The notes under the pieces: model-generated | Told to the model about the DNA's origin: nothing | The model's input: the letters and a program-made list of their open reading frames with translations, nothing else | The model's database searches: none | In this document: one piece after another, positions 12,225 to 32,332 of the stretch | Numbering within the stretch: position 1 is the first letter of the stretch | Layout: each line of letters begins with the position of its first letter | Position numbers and translations under genes: made by a program | From: Clostridiales bacterium | Lineage (GTDB): Bacteria > Bacillota > Dethiobacteria > Dethiobacterales > Dethiobacteraceae | DNA length: 45,413 bases | Direction of reading: 5' to 3' | Assembly (NCBI GenBank): GCA_018335855.1 | Contig: JAGXRM010000028.1 | Span: 1-45,413 of the forward strand

Positions 12225-14888
12225 TTATGCCTTTTCCACACGGACAGCACAGACTTTTAACTCCGGTGTTTTCGCAATGTGGCAAACCTCAGAGTTCGTC
12301 AGCAGGTTTGCGGCTGTTTCAGCAAAGTGGAATGTCATAAAGACAACACCGGGCTGAATCCTGTCGGTCACATGCACTTTTGACCGGACTGTGCCGCGGC
12401 GGGAAGTGACGGTTACAATATCGTCTTCGCCGATACCCAGTGCCTTGGCGTCTTCAGGGTTCAGTTCCATCAGTTCTTCCTTATGGAATTGGTTTAACCC
12501 TTCCGTTTTCCGCGTCATGGTGCCGGTGTGGTAATGGTACAGGCTGCGCCCTGTAGTGAGCAGGATGGGAAATTCCTCATCAGCCTGCTCCGCGGAAAGC
12601 CTGTAATCAACCGCACTGAACTTGCCGAGGCCGCGGCTGAATTTGCCCACATGCAGAATTGGCGTGCCGGGATGCTCCGGATTGGGGCAGGGCCACTGTA
12701 TGCCGCCGTCTTCCAGGCGCTTGTAGCTGAGGCCGGCATAGCTGGGTGTCAGCTCGGCAATTTCGTCAAAAATTTGCTCCGCAGACTCATAGTTCCAGTC
12801 ATAGCCCAGTTTTTGCGCCAGCAATTGGATAATTTCCCAGTCGGGCTTGCTTTGCCCGCGCGGCTTTAGGGCACGGCACACACGCTGCACACGGCGTTCG
12901 GTGTTAACAAATACACCGTCCTTTTCCGCAAATGTTGCGGCAGGCAGCACTACGTCAGCCAGCTTTGCGGTCTCCGTAAGGAAGATGTCCTGGACGACCA
13001 TGAAGTCCATTTTCTCCAGGCAGTCACAGATATGGCCGCCGTCGGGGTCACTGAGAAGCGGATTCTCCCCCATGATATACATGGCACGGATACGGTCTTC
13101 GACCGCGGCATGGAACATTTCCGTCATTGTCATGCCCGGCTTGCCGGGTAGGGTTACACACCATGCTTTTTCAAACTTTGCACGCGCATTATCATCCGCT
13201 ACAGGCTGATAACCGGTATAGACCCCAGGCAGAGCTCCCATATCGCAGGCACCCTGTACGTTATTCTGGCCGCGCAGCGGATTCAGGCCGGCACCGGGCT
13301 TGCCAAAGTTACCTGTGGCCAGCACCAAGTTGGCCAGGGACAGTACATTTTCGGTACCGCTGGTGTGCTGCGTCACACCCATGGTGTATAGGATGGTCGC
13401 GCTGTCGGCGCCAGCATAGAGCCGTGCCGCTCTTACAATATCCTCCGCCGGCACCCCGCTGATTTCTGAAGCGTATTCAGGCGTGTATTTTTCCACCGCC
13501 GCCTTCATGTCTTCAAAGCCTTCTGTGCGGCTGGCAATAAACTCGCTGTCAACCAGACCCTCTTTCAGAATGACATGAAGCATGCCGTTAATCAGCGCCA
13601 CATCGGTGCCCGGCTTGAGGGGCAGGTAAACATCTGCCACATCCGCAAGGCGAATCTCACGGGGGTCGGCCACAATCAGCCTGGCGCCCTTTTTAACTGC
13701 CTTACGGATTCTATACCCGATGATCGGGTGGTTTTCTGTGGTATTGGAGCCGATTACAAAAATTGCTTTTGCATCTTCCACTTCACCGATGGTGTTTGTC
13801 ATTGCACCGCTACCCAGAACAGTGGCCAGACCGGCCACAGTAGGAGCGTGTCACAATCGGGCGCAGTGGTCTAAATTGTTTGTCCCCAGCGAGCGGATCA
13901 ATCTGGTGAACACATAGTTATCTTCTGTGGTGCAGCGGGCGGAACTAATGCCGCCCAATGCATTGGGGCCGGACTCGTCAATAATTTCCTTAAACCTGGA
14001 AGCCACAAGGTCAAGCGCCTCGTCCCAGGATGCTTCCACAAGTTCGCCGTCACGCTTAATCAGCGGTGTGGTCAGGCGGTCGGGGTGGTTAACAAAGTTA
14101 TAGCCAAACCGTCCTTTGACGCAAAGCTGGCCTTTGTTAACGGGATTATCCTTGTCGCCACGGACAGACACCACACGGTCTCCGCGCACGCCCAGGTGAA
14201 TGCCGCAGCCTACGCCGCAATACCCGCAGACCGATTTAACTTCCCGGTTCGGCCGCTCGTAATTCTTGCGGGCTAGGGCACCGGTCGGGCAGCGCTCCAT
14301 ACATTCGCCGCAGGATTCACAGGTTGATTCGGCAAGCTTTTTGTTCCCCATGGTAACCACGGCTGTATGCTCCCCACGGAAACCAAAGTCAAGGGCTGTA
14401 ACGCCGTTTATTTCCTCACAGGTGCGGATACAAATTCCGCACAAAATGCAACGGGTGCGGTCAATATTGAAAAACGGGTTGCTTTCGTCAATTTCAACTT
14501 CGGTAACTGAGCGGCGTAGCATCGCCATCCGCTCCGGGGTAATCCCCACGTAGTTGGCAACTTCCTGCAATTTGCAGTTGCTGTCTTTTACACAGGTCTG
14601 GCAGTCTTCATTGTGCTTTGTCAGCAATAATTCCACAACCATACGCTGCACCTTACGGGCGCCTTCGGCGTCGATCCGAACCACCATACCATCTGTTACG
14701 GGAGCACGGCAGGCTGTCACCAGTTTACCGTTGGCTTCCACCATACATACCCGGCAGCCCCCAAACGTATGAAGTTCAGGATGGTGGCAAAGGGTGGGGA
14801 TATATACGCCAACTTTCTGTGCGGCGTCAAAGATCGTAGACCCTTTTTCCACGCTAACCTGGATGTCATCAATATAGAGTGTTACCAT
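12225..14888 (-). CDS. fdhA: Selenocysteine-containing formate dehydrogenase, catalytic subunit
   Basis: One gene of 887 residues with an in-frame TGA at 13851-13853 read as Sec346. Around the TGA the frame reads DHCARL-U-HAPTVAG, matching the Sec site of E. coli FdhF. The N-terminal electron-transfer module has a [2Fe-2S] site (Cys34, 45, 48, 60), a His92/Cys96/99/105 cluster and two [4Fe-4S] ferredoxin motifs (147-157 and 190-200). The Mo/W bis-MGD domain starts with a [4Fe-4S] motif (Cys221, 224, 228, 256). It oxidises formate or reduces CO2, using electrons from the NuoE/F-like partners encoded directly upstream (12-nt gap). ATG start with AAGGGGGG upstream. A standard gene caller would split it at the TGA into 13851-14888 and 12225-13838. 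Its layout is compatible with NAD-dependent or electron-bifurcating formate dehydrogenases. Confidence 0.97.
13822..13838 (-). promoter_or_regulatory. Bacterial SECIS stem-loop in fdhA
   Basis: Directly after the TGA codon, GTGGCC and GGCCAC form a perfect 6-bp stem around the loop GGTCT. The loop begins 18 nt after the TGA. Both the loop sequence and the spacing equal those I recall for the E. coli fdhF SECIS bound by SelB. The selA, selB and selC genes are not in this window. Confidence 0.92.
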
Positions 14889-25854: not shown

Positions 25855-27147
25855 TTAAGCTTGTTTCGGTTTAATGATGGAACGGGCACGGTTTTCTTCA
25901 CCAAAATGTTCCTGCAAGCGCCGGTTGACGTCTTCAAGGGTCAACTTCTGCAACACATCCAGGTAGTTAAAAAAGTTAATCCCCCTGAAGTGGTAAGCAA
26001 GAAAGTTGTTGGCAATAAACTCTAATGAGTTGAAACTCTTTAAAAAATCACCCATCATTTTCCGGCGGTGGTGCTCAAATTGCTCAGCGCTGATTCCGTC
26101 CTGCTGTGCCTGCTTTATTCCCGCTGTCAGTCGCGCAAACAACTTCTCGGGATTTGCCGTTTCTCCGCCGATAATGGTGTGGCCGTATTCTTTTTCAGCC
26201 ACATAACCGGCATCGAATTCGTCATCAATTAAACCCTCTTCGTAGAGCTCATTGTAAAGCTTTGAACTGGAACCGAAAACAACATCAAGTACCAGCGCCG
26301 TAGCCAGTTCCCGCTGAAATAAACGTTCACCGTCATAGCCCACATCCAAATCCTTAAAGCCAATGTTCATGATAGTCTGAGATACCACCAGTTCCTGGAC
26401 GACTTGCTCCTTTTCCAGTTCCCGCGGCTCTTCCGGATATATCCGCTTAATTTCCCCCAGAGGGCTGTAATTGCGCTTGCCAATATTTGAGGCCACCTGG
26501 TCAAGCACCTTGTCCGCGTCTACATCGCCCACAACAAACACAGCCATGTTACTGGGGTGATAAAATGTCCTGTAGCATTTATAGAGCACATCTTTATCAA
26601 TATGGCTGATACTTTCCACGGTTCCTGCAATATCTTTCTGCACCGGATGCTTACGGTAAAGAGCTATCAGCAAGTTAAAGAAGATGCGCCAACCGGGGTT
26701 GTCTTCGTACATTCTGATTTCCTGCTCAATAATTCCTTTTTCCTTTTCCACACTTTCCTCAGTAAAATACGGATTTTGGACAAAATCGAGCAGGATTTCA
26801 AGGCATTCTTCAAAGTGATCAGTGCTGGAGAACAGATATGTGGTGTTTGTGAAATTGGTAAACGCATTGCTCGACGCTCCGAGTTTTGCAAAGCGGTCAA
26901 AGACGTTGCCTTCCTCATCTTCAAATAGCTTATGCTCAAGGAAGTGGGCAACGCCGTCCGGCACGATCAGTTCCTTGCCTTCCCCTTCTACGATGAAATG
27001 GGAGTCGATAGAGCCGAAGTTAGTAGAATAGGTGGCATACTTTTTCTTGTACCCTTTTTTGGGGAGGACGAAAACTTCCAAACCCGGCTCAATGCGCCGC
27101 CAGATAATCTTTTCTTTCAGCAGGGTGTTCTCAACAATTTTGTTCAT
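25855..27147 (-). CDS. yfmH: M16 peptidase-like protein YfmH (EF-P modification-associated family)
   Basis: A 430-aa protein of the M16 (inverzincin) fold. The zinc-binding HxxEH is intact (His68, Glu71, His72 in AHFLEHKLFE). This family and its partner YfmF are annotated as associated with EF-P 5-aminopentanol modification, but the chemistry they perform is not clear to me. The gene starts 17 nt inside the 3' end of yfmF, and the pair likely forms a heterodimer with one active subunit. ATG start with GGGGGTGAACAGG upstream. Confidence 0.9.
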   Translation of the reverse strand: MNKIVENTLLKEKIIWRRIEPGLEVFVLPKKGYKKKYATYSTNFGSIDSHFIVEGEGKELIVPDGVAHFLEHKLFEDEEGNVFDRFAKLGASSNAFTNFTNTTYLFSSTDHFEECLEILLDFVQNPYFTEESVEKEKGIIEQEIRMYEDNPGWRIFFNLLIALYRKHPVQKDIAGTVESISHIDKDVLYKCYRTFYHPSNMAVFVVGDVDADKVLDQVASNIGKRNYSPLGEIKRIYPEEPRELEKEQVVQELVVSQTIMNIGFKDLDVGYDGERLFQRELATALVLDVVFGSSSKLYNELYEEGLIDDEFDAGYVAEKEYGHTIIGGETANPEKLFARLTAGIKQAQQDGISAEQFEHHRRKMMGDFLKSFNSLEFIANNFLAYHFRGINFFNYLDVLQKLTLEDVNRRLQEHFGEENRARSIIKPKQA

Positions 27148-28426
27148 GCCTGTTCACCCCCTTGTTGGAAAGAAAGAATACTGTATCCAGTTTTATGTTG
27201 TCGGCGACCCGTGCCACATCTTCCCGGGTTACGGCAGCCAACCGTTCCAGTAACTGGCCGGTATCTTCAACCCGACCGGAGAGCATGCCGTCCAGAGCGC
27301 GGTTAATCACCAACGCCGGATTATCTTCTTCCACCATAAATTGGTTGCGCAGACCGCTTTGGGTATTTTCATACTCTTCAGGTCCAAAATCGCCTTTGCG
27401 CATATCTTCAATCTGCTTCTCAATAATCTCCAGAGTCTGTTGATAATTTTTGTCTTCAATTCCCGCCGACACAATCATCAAGCCTTTATGTTTTTCCAAG
27501 CGCGAGTAGGCGTAATACGCCAGGCTGGCTTTTTCCCTGACATTCTGGAACAGCTTTGAATGGGGAAAACTGCCGAGAATTCCGTTATACATGAGGAGCG
27601 GAAAGTAATCGTCATCCGCATATGTCAGACCTGTCCGGTACCCTAAAACCAGCTTCCCCTGGCTTACATCCAGCTTTTCCGAGACATATTTTACTTCACC
27701 GTTATCGCCCTTTATCACAGTTGCTGGAATAGTCATTTCCGTTCCCCGGTCAAACTGCAGCACTTCATCAACGAGTGCAGCGACCCTTTCCGGGTCCACA
27801 TCTCCGATAATATGGAGGTCAACAGGGCTCTCCGTCAAAAAATCCCTGTAAAAGCGGTAAAGTGACTTATTATCAATTTGCCGCAGTTTTTCCACGTCGC
27901 CATATTTGAATACACCAAAAGGCTCATCCTTACACATTTCCCGCAGACATCTCTCTACAGAATACGCAATTTTATCGTTAATCAAACCTTTTATTACTTT
28001 TTCATGTTGTTCTTTTTCCTGGGTGACATAGTCAGACTTAAAACCGTTACCTTCCAATACAGGGTCGCTGATCAAATCCTTTAAAATGGCCAGCCCTTTG
28101 CGTAACAGTTCATTTTCACCAGGAAGATATTGATCATGTACCAGATCCATAGTAAACGTAACAAACAGCCGCTCGCCCTTTTTTGACACATCGGCCATTA
28201 ATTCACTGCCGTACAGTTCTTCCAGCTTATATGCCAACTGCTGTCTGGTCGGATACATGTTACTACCCCTCTGCAGCACGGATGGCAACAAGGAGCAGTC
28301 AGTTACATCCTCTGCCCGCAGGTGCCGATGGAAAATCAGCTGCACCAAAACAGTTTTAAACTTGCCGGTTGGGTGAATAAAGAGATTAATCCCGTTGTTT
28401 AAGCGTGTACGCTTAAATATTGTCAA
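27131..28426 (-). CDS. yfmF: M16 peptidase-like protein YfmF, non-catalytic partner
   Basis: A 431-aa M16-fold protein. The HxxEH motif is absent where yfmH has it, as expected for the inactive partner. M16 features such as LELYGSEL-like and GILGSFPHSKLFQNVREKASLAYYAYSR are retained. The TTG start has AGGAGGAG 7 nt upstream. It precedes and overlaps yfmH. A GCAGGAAAT motif lies about 80 nt upstream of the start. Nothing else gene-like was seen in 28427-28632. Confidence 0.88.
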   Translation of the reverse strand: MTIFKRTRLNNGINLFIHPTGKFKTVLVQLIFHRHLRAEDVTDCSLLPSVLQRGSNMYPTRQQLAYKLEELYGSELMADVSKKGERLFVTFTMDLVHDQYLPGENELLRKGLAILKDLISDPVLEGNGFKSDYVTQEKEQHEKVIKGLINDKIAYSVERCLREMCKDEPFGVFKYGDVEKLRQIDNKSLYRFYRDFLTESPVDLHIIGDVDPERVAALVDEVLQFDRGTEMTIPATVIKGDNGEVKYVSEKLDVSQGKLVLGYRTGLTYADDDYFPLLMYNGILGSFPHSKLFQNVREKASLAYYAYSRLEKHKGLMIVSAGIEDKNYQQTLEIIEKQIEDMRKGDFGPEEYENTQSGLRNQFMVEEDNPALVINRALDGMLSGRVEDTGQLLERLAAVTREDVARVADNIKLDTVFFLSNKGVNRHEQNC

Positions 28427-28632: not shown

Positions 28633-30777
28633 TTATGTTGCTTCTACAATCCTTCCGGAAAAAAGAATAATGGGCACCCCGGCATAAAGCAGCGTGGTTG
28701 CCGCCGCCACCACCCCGGAATCGTTAACCAGGAACGCTGTCACGCTACCTGCAATAATGCCGAGAAACCCTGCGGTCAGTTGTGGGTAACTACGGTGGAT
28801 CTCCCGAAGTATGCCGTGGGGTCTGTAAAAGAGTACGGCCAGCACTGTAAGAAAAGCGAGAAAAGCACGGCTCCACTGTGAATATCTAAAAAGCCTTACA
28901 TTCATTGCCGCTTTACGGGATACCACATCACGTAATGCCTGCCAGCCATCCCGTTCTACCATGGCCAATGTCCTGCCCAAATGGGATTGGTCACCTTGGG
29001 CTACAAAAACATTAAGTAATACAGCGATTCCCGCTATCAGAGTGGCTACAAGCAATGCCGCTGCAGCACTTCTCCACCCCGGACGAAACTGTCCCAGAAT
29101 CGTCACCGTTACAATAAATGCAGTAAACGCTGTTACAGTCCCGCCAAAGTTGGCTCCCCCCCCAGGTGAAACGATAAGGATTACAAGAGCCAGAAGATAT
29201 ATCACAGATATCGGCAACAGCCACCGGCGCCAATGAGGGAAAAGTGTAAGCAATGCTGTCACGGCCAAAACGGAAGAACCAACCAAAACCCCCATATATT
29301 CATTCCCCAACCCGTAGAAGCGGGCACCGGAAACCGGGTCATAGCCGAGAACAGAAACTTTCATCAACGGAGCATTACGCAGCAGATCAATGGTTAACGA
29401 TAAAGTTGTTACCACACCAACGACAGCCAGCTTTGCTACGATACTTGTAAAAAGTTTTTGCAAGAGAAAAGCAACTGCCACTGTAGCAAGTACACTTAAC
29501 GTAAAGCCAACTGGAACAGAAACGGTGTGCAAAGGGAGATATAGTAGAACGGCAGGGAAAGCAATCAGTGCAAATAGCAGCGATTCAAATCTTCGAATCG
29601 GCAGAATGCGTATGAAAAGATTCAGCAGAGCGCCAAGTACGAAGACAATCTGAAAAAAAACATACGTCTTCATTAATGGCGGACGCAGCCGGAAAACTCG
29701 ATCAATTTCTCTTTGCATACCCAGCAATTCCGCTGTGCCCCCCGGTGCGGCCAAACCCACAGGACGGCCAACCATGTTCCCCGGCACGCTAAGCCCCAGA
29801 TTATCAAGAATCAGGGGCGCCACGTCTACCGCAGCGATAATACCAGGACGGCGGGTCGTCGCCGATGTCAGCAAACTTCCCGGAGGAAACCGGCCGCCCA
29901 ATATCGCTATATAGCTGAGCAGCCCGCCGCCGGTTTCTCCCGTAGGCGGCGCTGGCGCCAGTATAATTAATGTATCTTCCAGAGAAAGAAGAGAAAACAC
30001 GCGGGTAAGAAACCAGGACAAATCTGAAAATATTTCCTCCTGTAAATCATCCGCCACTTGCGCTCGCAACAGTGGCCGGTATTCATCAAGGCGGACTGTA
30101 TTACCCCAGTCAACCAGAATTACATCGGCAGAGGGCCACAGCCTGTTAAACTCCAGCCATACCTTATCACGGTTTGTCCGCAATCCGAACGGAAACCGCG
30201 TGTCTTTCTCCAAAATAGCCCGACTGACGTCCCCCAGGCCAACCCTGCCAGAACTGTCGGCAAGAAACGCGGTAGATTCCCGGGAGACCGACGGCCCGTC
30301 CGCATTACCGATAACTGCCGTTACCAAGCCGGCACTACGCAACATGTCTCCGAGCAATCCCGGAGTAACCGGATGCTGAAACGTAAAATTTAGTTTAGCT
30401 ATTTCAGCAAACGCCAAATGGAGAACGCCAGCATCCGTTTCAGTCCCCTGATGGCGGTGGTAGATCTCCCGCGCTATTAAGCCCGTCCATTCTTCGTCAG
30501 CATTAAACGCCAACCTGGTGTTATCCGTTCCTGCAGCCCGGGATCCGGCCCCCAGGGTAACGTAAACATGCTCTGTGGTAGGCCGTGCTGCCGTGGAAAT
30601 ATTAACAAGGGATACCGCGCCCCGCGCCAGCCAGGGAGCAAGGGACTGATCAGCCGCCACAGTACGTAAATTGGTCCGGTTGACGGAAACAATGACAACT
30701 TTTCCCGCGGCAACCGATTCAGCCGGCCACAACAAAAAAAACAATAAAATCAATAGAGCACGGGACGCCATTTTCAA
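28633..30777 (-). CDS. Polytopic membrane protein with N-terminal phosphatase-like ectodomain
   Basis: A 714-aa protein. Residues about 1-25 are a signal peptide (RALLILLFFLLW...AAG). Residues about 26-365 read like an extracytoplasmic alkaline-phosphatase/sulfatase-fold domain, with VNRTNL near the start, TTEHVYVTLGAG, and LIILAPAPPTGETGGG. The catalytic residues are not all recognisable. Residues about 375-710 hold many hydrophobic segments (about ten) with a charged loop near 595-635. The TTG start overlaps the GT4 gene stop (TTGA); an ATG two codons later is an alternative. The fold plus the neighbouring glycosyltransferase suggests a role in envelope polymer synthesis or modification, which is inference. 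I do not know a named family. Confidence 0.75.
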   Translation of the reverse strand: MKMASRALLILLFFLLWPAESVAAGKVVIVSVNRTNLRTVAADQSLAPWLARGAVSLVNISTAARPTTEHVYVTLGAGSRAAGTDNTRLAFNADEEWTGLIAREIYHRHQGTETDAGVLHLAFAEIAKLNFTFQHPVTPGLLGDMLRSAGLVTAVIGNADGPSVSRESTAFLADSSGRVGLGDVSRAILEKDTRFPFGLRTNRDKVWLEFNRLWPSADVILVDWGNTVRLDEYRPLLRAQVADDLQEEIFSDLSWFLTRVFSLLSLEDTLIILAPAPPTGETGGGLLSYIAILGGRFPPGSLLTSATTRRPGIIAAVDVAPLILDNLGLSVPGNMVGRPVGLAAPGGTAELLGMQREIDRVFRLRPPLMKTYVFFQIVFVLGALLNLFIRILPIRRFESLLFALIAFPAVLLYLPLHTVSVPVGFTLSVLATVAVAFLLQKLFTSIVAKLAVVGVVTTLSLTIDLLRNAPLMKVSVLGYDPVSGARFYGLGNEYMGVLVGSSVLAVTALLTLFPHWRRWLLPISVIYLLALVILIVSPGGGANFGGTVTAFTAFIVTVTILGQFRPGWRSAAAALLVATLIAGIAVLLNVFVAQGDQSHLGRTLAMVERDGWQALRDVVSRKAAMNVRLFRYSQWSRAFLAFLTVLAVLFYRPHGILREIHRSYPQLTAGFLGIIAGSVTAFLVNDSGVVAAATTLLYAGVPIILFSGRIVEAT

Positions 30778-31889
30778 ACGAGCGTCCCCCCTTTCATCAC
30801 ACGATAGTAAGTGTTTCGTGTACTCTCCAACATATTACGGATATCATACCTTTCTGCAACTGTTGCAGCCTGCTTCGCCAGGCTTTCCGCAAGTTTATCA
30901 TCTTCCAGTAATAATCTGACAGCATCCGTCAATTGCTCTATATCACCCGGTTCGACCAACAACCCGTTTTCTCCGTGGCGAATCAGTTCCTTTAAGCCTC
31001 CTGTTGCACTGGCAACCACCGGACAGCCCGCCGACATTGCCTCCAAAACTGTGATTCCCTGCCCTTCACTTAAAGAAGGTTGGACAAAAATCTTTATGCG
31101 AGCCAGAATTGCCGGCACATCCTGCCGATAGCCGGCAAAGTAAATCCGCCCGTCCAACCCCAACTGCCGGGCAAGGGATTCCAGTTCCCCGCGTAACGGG
31201 CCGTCCCCGACAATAATAAAACCCGTATGAGTGTATTGCAGTTGCAGTTTTGCCACAGCACGGATAAAGTATTCCACGCCCTTTTGCGGCGCCAGCCTCG
31301 CTACTGTTCCCACTAACGGCATATTGTCGGGGAAAGGCAGTTCCTCCTCCAATGGCATGTTCCCTGCCGGTCTGGCAATACCATTGGGAATAATGACAAT
31401 CCGATCAGGGCTAACACCGTAAGCACCCTGCAGTTCTTCGGCAAGCCAGGCCGAAACTGCGATATAGCCTGTGGTCCACCGGGATAAATATCTTTCTGCT
31501 GCCAGATAAACCATGCGTAATTGCGACACGTTGGCGTGGGCAAAATCATTATGTACAGTAATCAGGCAGGGGACACGGCACGCCCTGGCCGCCATTCGTG
31601 CAACCATCCCCGCTTTGAATCCATGGGCATGGACAAGATCGAACGTTTCCCTGCGGAGTTTGCCTGTCATGCTACAAACTGCGGCCAGATCCTGGGCAGG
31701 ATTTAGCGTTTTCCCCATGGGAACAGGAAATATTTCCGTTGCCAACTCAGTAAAATCATCTGCTAATTCAGACGGACAAGCCACGCAAAAGTTAAATTCA
31801 TTAGATAGGTTTTCCAATAAATGCTTAACATGGACACGGATTCCCCCTGCCACCGGCCGCACCACAGTGAGAATTCTGGGTCTTACCAT
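30774..31889 (-). CDS. Family 4 glycosyltransferase
   Basis: A 371-aa GT-B glycosyltransferase of the GT4 family. The N-terminal acceptor half has GGIRVHVKHLLENL and HAHGFKAGMVARMA. The C-terminal donor half has GTVARLAPQKGVEYFIRA, FIIVGDGPLRGELE, and EGQGITVLEAMSAGCPVVA containing the E-x7-E motif. The start at 31889 (MVRPRIL) has GGGAGG 6 nt upstream; an ATG at 31994 would collide with the tRNA promoter. The sugar and acceptor are not predictable. It overlaps the downstream membrane protein gene by 4 nt, so they function together or are translated together. Confidence 0.9.
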   Translation of the reverse strand: MVRPRILTVVRPVAGGIRVHVKHLLENLSNEFNFCVACPSELADDFTELATEIFPVPMGKTLNPAQDLAAVCSMTGKLRRETFDLVHAHGFKAGMVARMAARACRVPCLITVHNDFAHANVSQLRMVYLAAERYLSRWTTGYIAVSAWLAEELQGAYGVSPDRIVIIPNGIARPAGNMPLEEELPFPDNMPLVGTVARLAPQKGVEYFIRAVAKLQLQYTHTGFIIVGDGPLRGELESLARQLGLDGRIYFAGYRQDVPAILARIKIFVQPSLSEGQGITVLEAMSAGCPVVASATGGLKELIRHGENGLLVEPGDIEQLTDAVRLLLEDDKLAESLAKQAATVAERYDIRNMLESTRNTYYRVMKGGTLV

Positions 31890-31955
31890 AAGCGCCTCCC
31901 CAACGTTTTCAGATAGTATGTCCAAACACTCCCTATTTTTACCTAAGCCGTCTGT

Positions 31956-31984
31956 TTGACTTTTGCCGCTAAAGATGTTATCAT
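31956..31984 (+). promoter_or_regulatory. Sigma-A promoter for tRNA-Arg
   Basis: TTGACT (31956-31961), a 17-nt spacer and TATCAT (31979-31984). The predicted transcript starts near 31991, 5 nt before the mature tRNA. It is divergent from the GT4 gene. Confidence 0.75.
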
Positions 31985-31995
31985 ATTCTAGCATT

Positions 31996-32070
31996 GCGCC
32001 CGTAGTGAAAAGGATATCACGTAGGCCTCCGGAGCCTGAAGTCGGGGTTCGAATCCCTGCGGGCGCACCA
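31996..32070 (+). tRNA. tRNA-Arg, anticodon CCG
   Basis: A 75-nt cloverleaf. The acceptor arms GCGCCCG and CGGGCGC pair perfectly and the 3' end is encoded as ACCA. The D stem is GTGA/TCAC, the anticodon loop is CTCCGGA with anticodon CCG reading CGG codons, and the T arm contains GGTTCGAATC. The anticodon stem has a T-G closing pair. It is a lone tRNA gene with its own promoter and terminator. Confidence 0.95.
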
Positions 32071-32128: not shown

Positions 32129-32326
32129 TTATTGAAGCCTACGGCAAACCTCAGAAACTACGGGATGATAAATTTTGGGGAACGCCAATGTTTTCATTTC
32201 CCCGGCACTCACCCAGCGCCATCCGTCTCCGTCAGGCAATGTTAAACTGCTTGTTTTACCACCTGCATCAACATCCACTGCCGGAAATTCCCACAGACCT
32301 GCCAGCAAGCCCTGCTGATTCCGTTT
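32129..32326 (-). pseudogene. mutY C-terminal remnant
   Basis: The minus-strand frame immediately after the LysM hydrolase stop reads QQGLLAGLWEFP, then after about 22 residues WRWVSAGEMKTLAFPKI, ending CRRLQ and a stop at 32129. This resembles the 8-oxoG-recognition Nudix-like C terminus of MutY (GLLA.LWEFP, later A.P). It has no start codon or ribosome site, no N-terminal glycosylase, and about 50-60 residues of the usual C-terminal domain appear missing between the two blocks. It is in frame with the hydrolase but separated by its TAA. A relic of a lost mutY is the simplest reading; another Nudix protein is possible. Confidence 0.6.
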
Positions 32327-32332
32327 TATTTC

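Follow-up and report, generated by a model that had tools for sequence, protein, structure and literature searches.

What might a glycosyltransferase and a large membrane protein with a phosphatase-like outer domain do together, when their genes follow one another on the same strand? Such a pair lies on contig JAGXRM010000028.1 of a Clostridiales bacterium (Dethiobacteraceae; assembly GCA_018335855.1), and "the window" means here the whole stretch that was analysed, 45,413 nucleotides long. We give about an even chance to the answer argued for below, that the glycosyltransferase of family 4 (GT4) makes or extends a lipid-linked sugar, and that the membrane protein, here called MEM, is an extracytoplasmic polymerase or ligase resembling SEDS and WaaL proteins and carrying an accessory pseudo-phosphatase domain. 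The two genes and their junction are as follows.

30774..31889, minus strand: GT4 glycosyltransferase gene, 371 amino acids, ATG start, Shine-Dalgarno sequence at 31895-31901, PF00534 and PF13439 domains
28633..30777, minus strand: MEM gene, 714-amino-acid membrane protein with signal anchor, probable pseudo-phosphatase ectodomain and a membrane domain of 11 helices
30774..30777, minus strand: TTGA, the likely overlap of GT4 stop and MEM start; an alternative ATG start lies at 30771
30786..30791, minus strand: GGGGGG, a Shine-Dalgarno-like run 8 nucleotides 5' of the MEM TTG start

Both open reading frames (ORFs), 30774-31994 and 28633-30777 on the minus strand, are present in the window with GT4 first and MEM after it; the initial annotation, which had described a GT4 gene joined to a 714-amino-acid gene by a TTGA overlap, was right about frames, coordinates and overlap. 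The longer GT4 frame from 31994 reaches almost to a tRNA-Arg gene (CCG; 31996-32070, plus strand) that stands directly upstream, and translation likely starts at the ATG at 31889, which has GGGGAGG ahead of it and is also the start given in the initial annotation. That the overlap is exactly TTGA is likely, not certain, because the third codon of MEM is an ATG; this start at 30771 would leave the genes without overlap, and its spacing to the GGGGGG run is worse (14 nucleotides). MEM is not a chance ORF: identity to the best relative is 73%, and 42 of 59 genomes of relatives contain homologues. As for the first protein, its GT-B domains (PF00534, E 1.5e-44, 152 bits; PF13439, E 2e-27, 96.8 bits) together with an E-x7-E pattern identify it as a GT4 glycosyltransferase. 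G15, G16, R198, K203, E275 and E283 are invariant in 50 aligned GT4 partners, and the last two of these form the E-x7-E, which we take to be a GT4-type motif.

How widely is MEM spread, and how regularly does GT4 accompany it? A scan of genome contigs with MEM patterns gave 93 relatives, and the best 80 of the 93, in 79 loci, were kept. These include Dethiobacter, Desulforudis, Desulfotruncus, Thermosediminibacter, Fervidicola, Syntrophomonas and Halanaerobacter, and by record name all of the 80 are clostridia-like, halanaerobial or unclassified, except one metagenome-assembled genome named Actinobacteria and one Aneurinibacillus. When genomes sampled across the phylum were searched with a profile of the membrane domain, 240 of 398 had a match, or 217 of 356 if good assemblies alone are counted, and from the best matches listed, a second set of 58 regions was drawn, mostly one per family; the two sets share some genomes, and their counts are not additive. 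GT4 is the same-strand neighbour of MEM in 49 of the 74 assessable loci of the first set (42 upstream, 7 downstream; five loci stop at a contig edge) and in 33 of the 54 assessable regions of the second (30 upstream, 3 downstream; four at a contig edge), so that the pairing, whose conservation in relatives the initial annotation had proposed to check, is indeed conserved. The adjacency, counted in 82 loci over the two overlapping sets, is always on the same strand and comes in both gene orders, and 51 of the 82 overlap if genes are called from their earliest start codon. The persistence of linkage in both gene orders argues that GT4 and MEM are functionally tied, and this tie is common, not universal. 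With "the same GT4" defined by a cut-off of 320 bits, which was set after the scores were known, a high-scoring GT4 is found in none of 10 MEM-negative genomes and in 5 of 5 linked genomes, which supplied rows to the GT4 profile (A3) and hence match by construction; second GT4 copies in G062 (346 bits) and G229 (334 bits) also exceed the line.

Some lineages hold MEM alone among other genes, with no GT4 neighbour. Syntrophomonas-like genomes (L100, L103, L106, L107, L108, L109) have two tandem MEM genes and no adjoining GT4. Halanaerobiales-like loci (L084, L095, L098, L101, L246, L249) likewise have no GT4 and show another fixed context, in which MEM comes after two genes, one presumably resembling alaS and a small one of 83-88 amino acids, and is often followed by an FtsA-like ATPase gene (the Pfam test covering L097 only). 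In Thermosediminibacter-like loci (L051, L065, L066, L093), a polyprenyl synthetase-like cluster gene and an opposite-strand DUF2600 gene precede MEM, hinting at a polyprenyl context.

What kind of protein, then, is MEM? Against Pfam and NCBIfam it has no match at E<=1, and 31 members scanned singly against the same collections gave only stray weak matches, among which were models of phosphoglycerate mutase or of sulfatase-like proteins. The full MEM profile found no convincing relative among PDB sequences (best E 0.23). An AlphaFold model of the whole protein, made with 74 aligned sequences, has a mean predicted local distance difference test (pLDDT) score of 92.4, and in it an N-terminal helix (residues 2-16) is followed by an alpha/beta ectodomain that extends to around residue 345 and then by 11 membrane helices, as counted from the secondary structure of the model; many spans had been foreseen by the initial annotation, and their number is 11, not about ten. 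The parts needed below are these.

29743..30705, minus strand: ectodomain (residues 25-345), alkaline phosphatase superfamily fold by its model, metal ligands lost
28636..29712, minus strand: membrane domain (residues 356-714), with a putative SEDS/WaaL-like fold
29290..29328, minus strand: GARFYGLGNEYMG motif (residues 484-496), outer loop and top of helix 5, with R486 and E493
29140..29163, minus strand: GGGANFGG motif (residues 539-546), outer loop ahead of helix 7, with N543
28879..29004, minus strand: long outer loop (residues 592-633), with S598, H599, R621, K622 and N626
28714..28725, minus strand: NDSG motif (residues 685-688), outer end of helices 10 and 11

It is the membrane domain in which conservation is concentrated. 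Eighteen of the 21 columns that are invariant in the 74 members fall in the last 350 residues, namely P408, D464, nine in GxRxYGxGNxYMG (484-496), G541, G546, H599, K622 and those of NDxG (685-688). Moreover, among the membrane-domain positions conserved in at least 90% of members, 35 of 36 are on the outer side, either in loops or in the outward half of a helix, compared with 205 of 349 positions overall (binomial 1.3e-7), given a presumed orientation in which the N-terminal anchor puts the ectodomain outside. The outer loop 592-633, near the C-terminus, carries L629 in addition to the residues listed above. Modelled alone, the membrane domain has a pLDDT of 91.1, and its first Foldseek match is RodA 6pl6 (probability 0.99, E 0.059). 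When 1000 Foldseek-ranked PDB chains were re-aligned to this model, the top eight rows were all FtsW, WaaL or RodA structures, aligned over 228-269 residues with Z scores of 12.3-10.3 (FtsW 8p1u 12.3, WaaL 7tpg 11.3, FtsW 8bh1 11.2, RodA 6bas 11.0, 6bar 10.9, 6pl6 10.9 and 6pl5 10.8, and 8tj3, of the same group, 10.3), all below about 13, where helical proteins can match by chance or by common arrangement. The ninth row is a G-protein-coupled receptor at Z 8.1, and a comparison with the viral structures of BFVD returned nothing at E<=0.001. Because all eight leading rows share one structural class, the model gives moderate support to a SEDS/WaaL-like, that is GT-C_B, fold.

With SEDS proteins FtsW and RodA (CAZy GT119, GT-C_B), MEM appears to share the overall fold of the membrane domain (255 residues of the model aligned to 8p1u at 5.0 A), and it has in common with them the outward position of its conserved residues, a long outer loop close to the C-terminus and an extracytoplasmic partner domain, which is fused in MEM and is a class B penicillin-binding protein in SEDS systems. 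It differs in having no detectable sequence similarity to them and other conserved motifs, and its partner domain has a phosphatase fold whereas that of SEDS is a transpeptidase. With the O-antigen ligase WaaL (CAZy GT121, GT-C_B), it appears to share the fold (269 residues aligned to 7tpg at 5.8 A) and has likewise outer-side basic residues together with a His or acid, and differs in the lack of profile similarity to Wzy_C, in its large N-terminal ectodomain and in its clostridia-like hosts. Since there is no profile similarity to SEDS or Wzy_C, MEM is not filed in GT119 or GT121. According to a paper on GT-C_B enzymes that use lipid diphosphates, their conserved residues are all at the outer face, Arg binds the lipid diphosphate, Asp, Glu or His activates the acceptor, and the clan with SEDS and O-antigen ligase has a long outer loop near the C-terminus (PMC10920833). 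MEM agrees in outline with each of these traits. What the initial annotation missed is that the membrane domain is the conserved and probably catalytic part of the protein.

Then what is the ectodomain for? Its structural matches (residues about 20-345) are PafA 5tj3 (Z 21.6, 271 aligned, 3.1 A), phosphoglycerate mutase 1o98 (Z 21.2) and the YejM-type structure 6vat (E 7.2e-4), and the model bears out an alkaline-phosphatase-superfamily fold, which is clear and had been anticipated by the initial annotation. By hhalign, MEM aligns to phosphoglycerate mutases from related genomes with a probability of 96 over residues 135-343, and a C-terminal stretch of the type DIAPTIL..LG..P..M.G is common to MEM and cofactor-independent phosphoglycerate mutase (iPGM). 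The alignments of iPGM, SEDS and Wzy_C used in these comparisons were built from ORFs within length limits, by which some fetched loci were dropped (for example, the 465-amino-acid ORF of L120 for iPGM and ORFs over 600 amino acids for Wzy_C). In place of the Asp-His (DH) pair, MEM has P-x-P (P275 in 64 of 74 members, P277 in 68); in place of the Asp...His motif, it has GDxxR (D226 in 70, R229 in 73), and the window protein has N226; the region of the third and last His of phosphoglycerate mutase has no counterpart. The N-terminal part of the alignment is weak (probability 4.8), which makes the placing of the first Asp and of the nucleophile less certain: at the nucleophile position 20 of 74 members have T or S, the window protein included (T68), and the first Asp, equivalent to what we take to be D12 in iPGM numbering, is retained in 51 of 74, the window protein having Asn there (N33). 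Of the metal-binding Asp and His residues to which the initial annotation had pointed, only this first Asp survives, in many members; this goes most of the way towards the loss of all ligands that the initial annotation had named as telling against its reading.

Nevertheless, the ectodomain is conserved and not decaying, since G157, G177 and T308 are invariant in the 74 members and N158, D160, R166, D226 and R229 nearly so. As the positions of metal ligands and nucleophile are not kept while the domain stays conserved, the ectodomain is probably a pseudo-phosphatase, like iPGM and the alkaline phosphatase superfamily in fold and C-terminal stretch and different from them in its missing metal ligands and nucleophile. 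Because of the lost ligands, phosphatase catalysis by this domain was rejected, and the phosphate removal suggested by the initial annotation finds no support. GPI ethanolamine phosphate transferases (PIG-N, PIG-O, Mcd4) also have an N-terminal phosphatase-fold ectodomain followed by many transmembrane helices, and they have kept the catalytic site that MEM appears to have lost. YejM (PbgA, LapC) likewise lies in the membrane and has an outer domain with an alkaline-phosphatase fold of atypical kind; it differs in order, five N-terminal transmembrane helices being followed by the outer domain, in contrast to the opposite order and 11 helices of MEM. Its site was first judged inactive and later reported to be that of a Mg-dependent phosphatase (PMC7576196), which calls for caution with the label of pseudo-phosphatase.

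A natural experiment is provided by six genomes of one genus (L268-L273), in which MEM is about 505 amino acids long and its N-terminal part is without the phosphatase core. This shortened form retains R486, Y488, N492, E493, N543, R621, K622, N626, N685 and D686. With the phosphatase core gone and these residues kept, the six sequences suggest that MEM works through its membrane domain and that the phosphatase fold is accessory. The genes beside shortened MEM presumably encode an RNA methyltransferase-like protein and an aldo/keto reductase-ferredoxin-like protein.

If these pieces are put together, GT4 and MEM may carry out consecutive steps of one surface-glycan pathway. The cytoplasmic GT4 would add a sugar to a membrane lipid carrier or extend a sugar already linked to it, the product being most likely an undecaprenyl-diphosphate-linked sugar, and this lipid-linked intermediate would then be flipped to the outer face. 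There, the membrane domain of MEM would act as a glycosyltransferase of GT-C_B fold using the lipid-diphosphate sugar as donor, and might either polymerise the glycan or ligate it to an acceptor. R486 and the pair R621/K622 would keep the diphosphate in place, and activation of the acceptor may fall to E493, D686 or H599; the ectodomain, without its metal site, would be an accessory for binding, positioning or regulation. The addition of sugar to a surface polymer or lipid, proposed in the initial annotation, would thereby find support. It is to be noted that the genome also encodes two proteins of PF00953, which we take to be the family of MraY/TagO-type initiators of lipid-linked sugars, and two LCP glycopolymer transferases, which could supply the steps before and after GT4 and MEM.

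Several facts speak against this pathway. A GT4 neighbour of MEM is missing in 25 of the 74 assessable loci of the first set and in 21 of the 54 of the second, and a high-scoring GT4 is encoded elsewhere in just 5 of 20 MEM-positive genomes without a GT4 neighbour. By hhalign, the membrane-domain profile scores a probability of 0.3 against SEDS and 1.3 against Wzy_C, while SEDS against Wzy_C, the positive control in the same test, scores 66; and the Z scores are in the range mentioned above. H599 is Tyr in the shortened MEM, which suggests that not all members need this residue. Finally, no polymer, flippase or initiator gene adjoins the pair among the window genes scanned, where the initial annotation had advised looking for polymer genes. 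Could the two genes then simply be adjacent housekeeping genes of unrelated functions? The loci without neighbouring GT4 would allow it, and same-strand adjacency in 82 loci of the two overlapping sets, in two gene orders and with 51 overlaps, makes it improbable. Or could MEM flip or export the glycolipid that GT4 produces, the ectodomain then taking over the cargo? A polytopic protein paired with a cytoplasmic GT4 would suit such a role, and its conserved basic residues might bind a lipid diphosphate; a transporter is expected to need both faces of the membrane, however, whereas 35 of 36 conserved positions are on the outer side and the best fold matches are SEDS and WaaL proteins, so we hold this unlikely.

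The remaining alternatives start from the ectodomain. It might be an active metal-dependent phosphatase or phosphotransferase, in the style of LtaS, EptA or the GPI ethanolamine-phosphate transferases, that shifts phosphate groups on a glycolipid made by GT4. The clear fold, the polar residues still conserved (D160, R166, D174, D226, R229, T308) and the case of YejM, once thought to have no working site and then reported as a Mg-dependent phosphatase, can be cited for this; the replacement of DH by P-x-P and of Asp...His by GDxxR, the missing third His region, the T or S nucleophile in 20 of 74, N33 and N226 in the window and the six shortened members lacking the core leave it a poor candidate. 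Instead, MEM might have no catalytic function and regulate or scaffold envelope synthesis, with the pseudo-phosphatase as sensor of a lipid or polymer and the membrane domain as relay of the signal. The degenerate phosphatase fold fits this idea, as do several loci where MEM sits among housekeeping genes without GT4, and so does YejM/PbgA, an envelope protein whose outer domain is related and whose enzymatic role is disputed (PMC7018646, PMC7576196). Even so, the clustering of 18 of 21 invariant columns in active site-like motifs of the membrane domain, together with the difference between that domain and the five-helix one of YejM, makes a regulator rather unlikely, if not quite negligible.

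If the reading of MEM as a SEDS/WaaL-like enzyme is followed, the protein is best treated as a family of its own, new and without a name, working like this class and not as a member of any named family. What is new is that such a domain is fused to a pseudo-phosphatase, that a GT4 is coupled to it and that clostridia-like bacteria carry it so widely; the literature searched, outside subscription journals and preprints, contained no description of such a fusion. Tentatively, and with a good deal of doubt, it may be proposed that MEM is a widespread new GT-C family in which a SEDS/WaaL-type domain stands behind a pseudo-phosphatase that could bind the lipid diphosphate or the acceptor, and that it makes up, with its dedicated GT4, a minimal two-gene pathway for an undescribed surface glycan. 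Occurrence in 240 of 398 genomes, invariant active site-like motifs and the lack of a family name suggest an unrecognised common step of envelope-glycan synthesis in clostridia-like bacteria. Should MEM prove to be a SEDS/WaaL-like enzyme, a small class, to which polymerases relevant to antibiotics belong, would gain a family, and it could be tested what the fused pseudo-phosphatase domain does.

Other features of the window deserve a short description. Downstream of MEM, at 25855-28426 on the minus strand, is a pair of M16 peptidase-like genes, YfmF (465 bits) and YfmH (561 bits), which NCBIfam names as associated with the 5-aminopentanol modification of EF-P; related M16 genes (cluster 4) are found in 18 of the 79 MEM loci. 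At 12225-14888, also on the minus strand and flanked by NuoF-like and FdhD genes, formate dehydrogenase alpha falls into two ORFs of the same frame, with one TGA, codon 346, between them (CARL*HAPTVAGLAT), and because of this single in-frame TGA it is probably a selenocysteine enzyme. Between a LysM hydrolase gene and the tRNA gene, at about 32130-32330 on the minus strand, there is an open stretch without a start of its own that reads NQQGLLAGLWEFPAVD...YHPVVSEVCRRLQ; it presumably resembles the C-terminal end of MutY and is perhaps a gene remnant.

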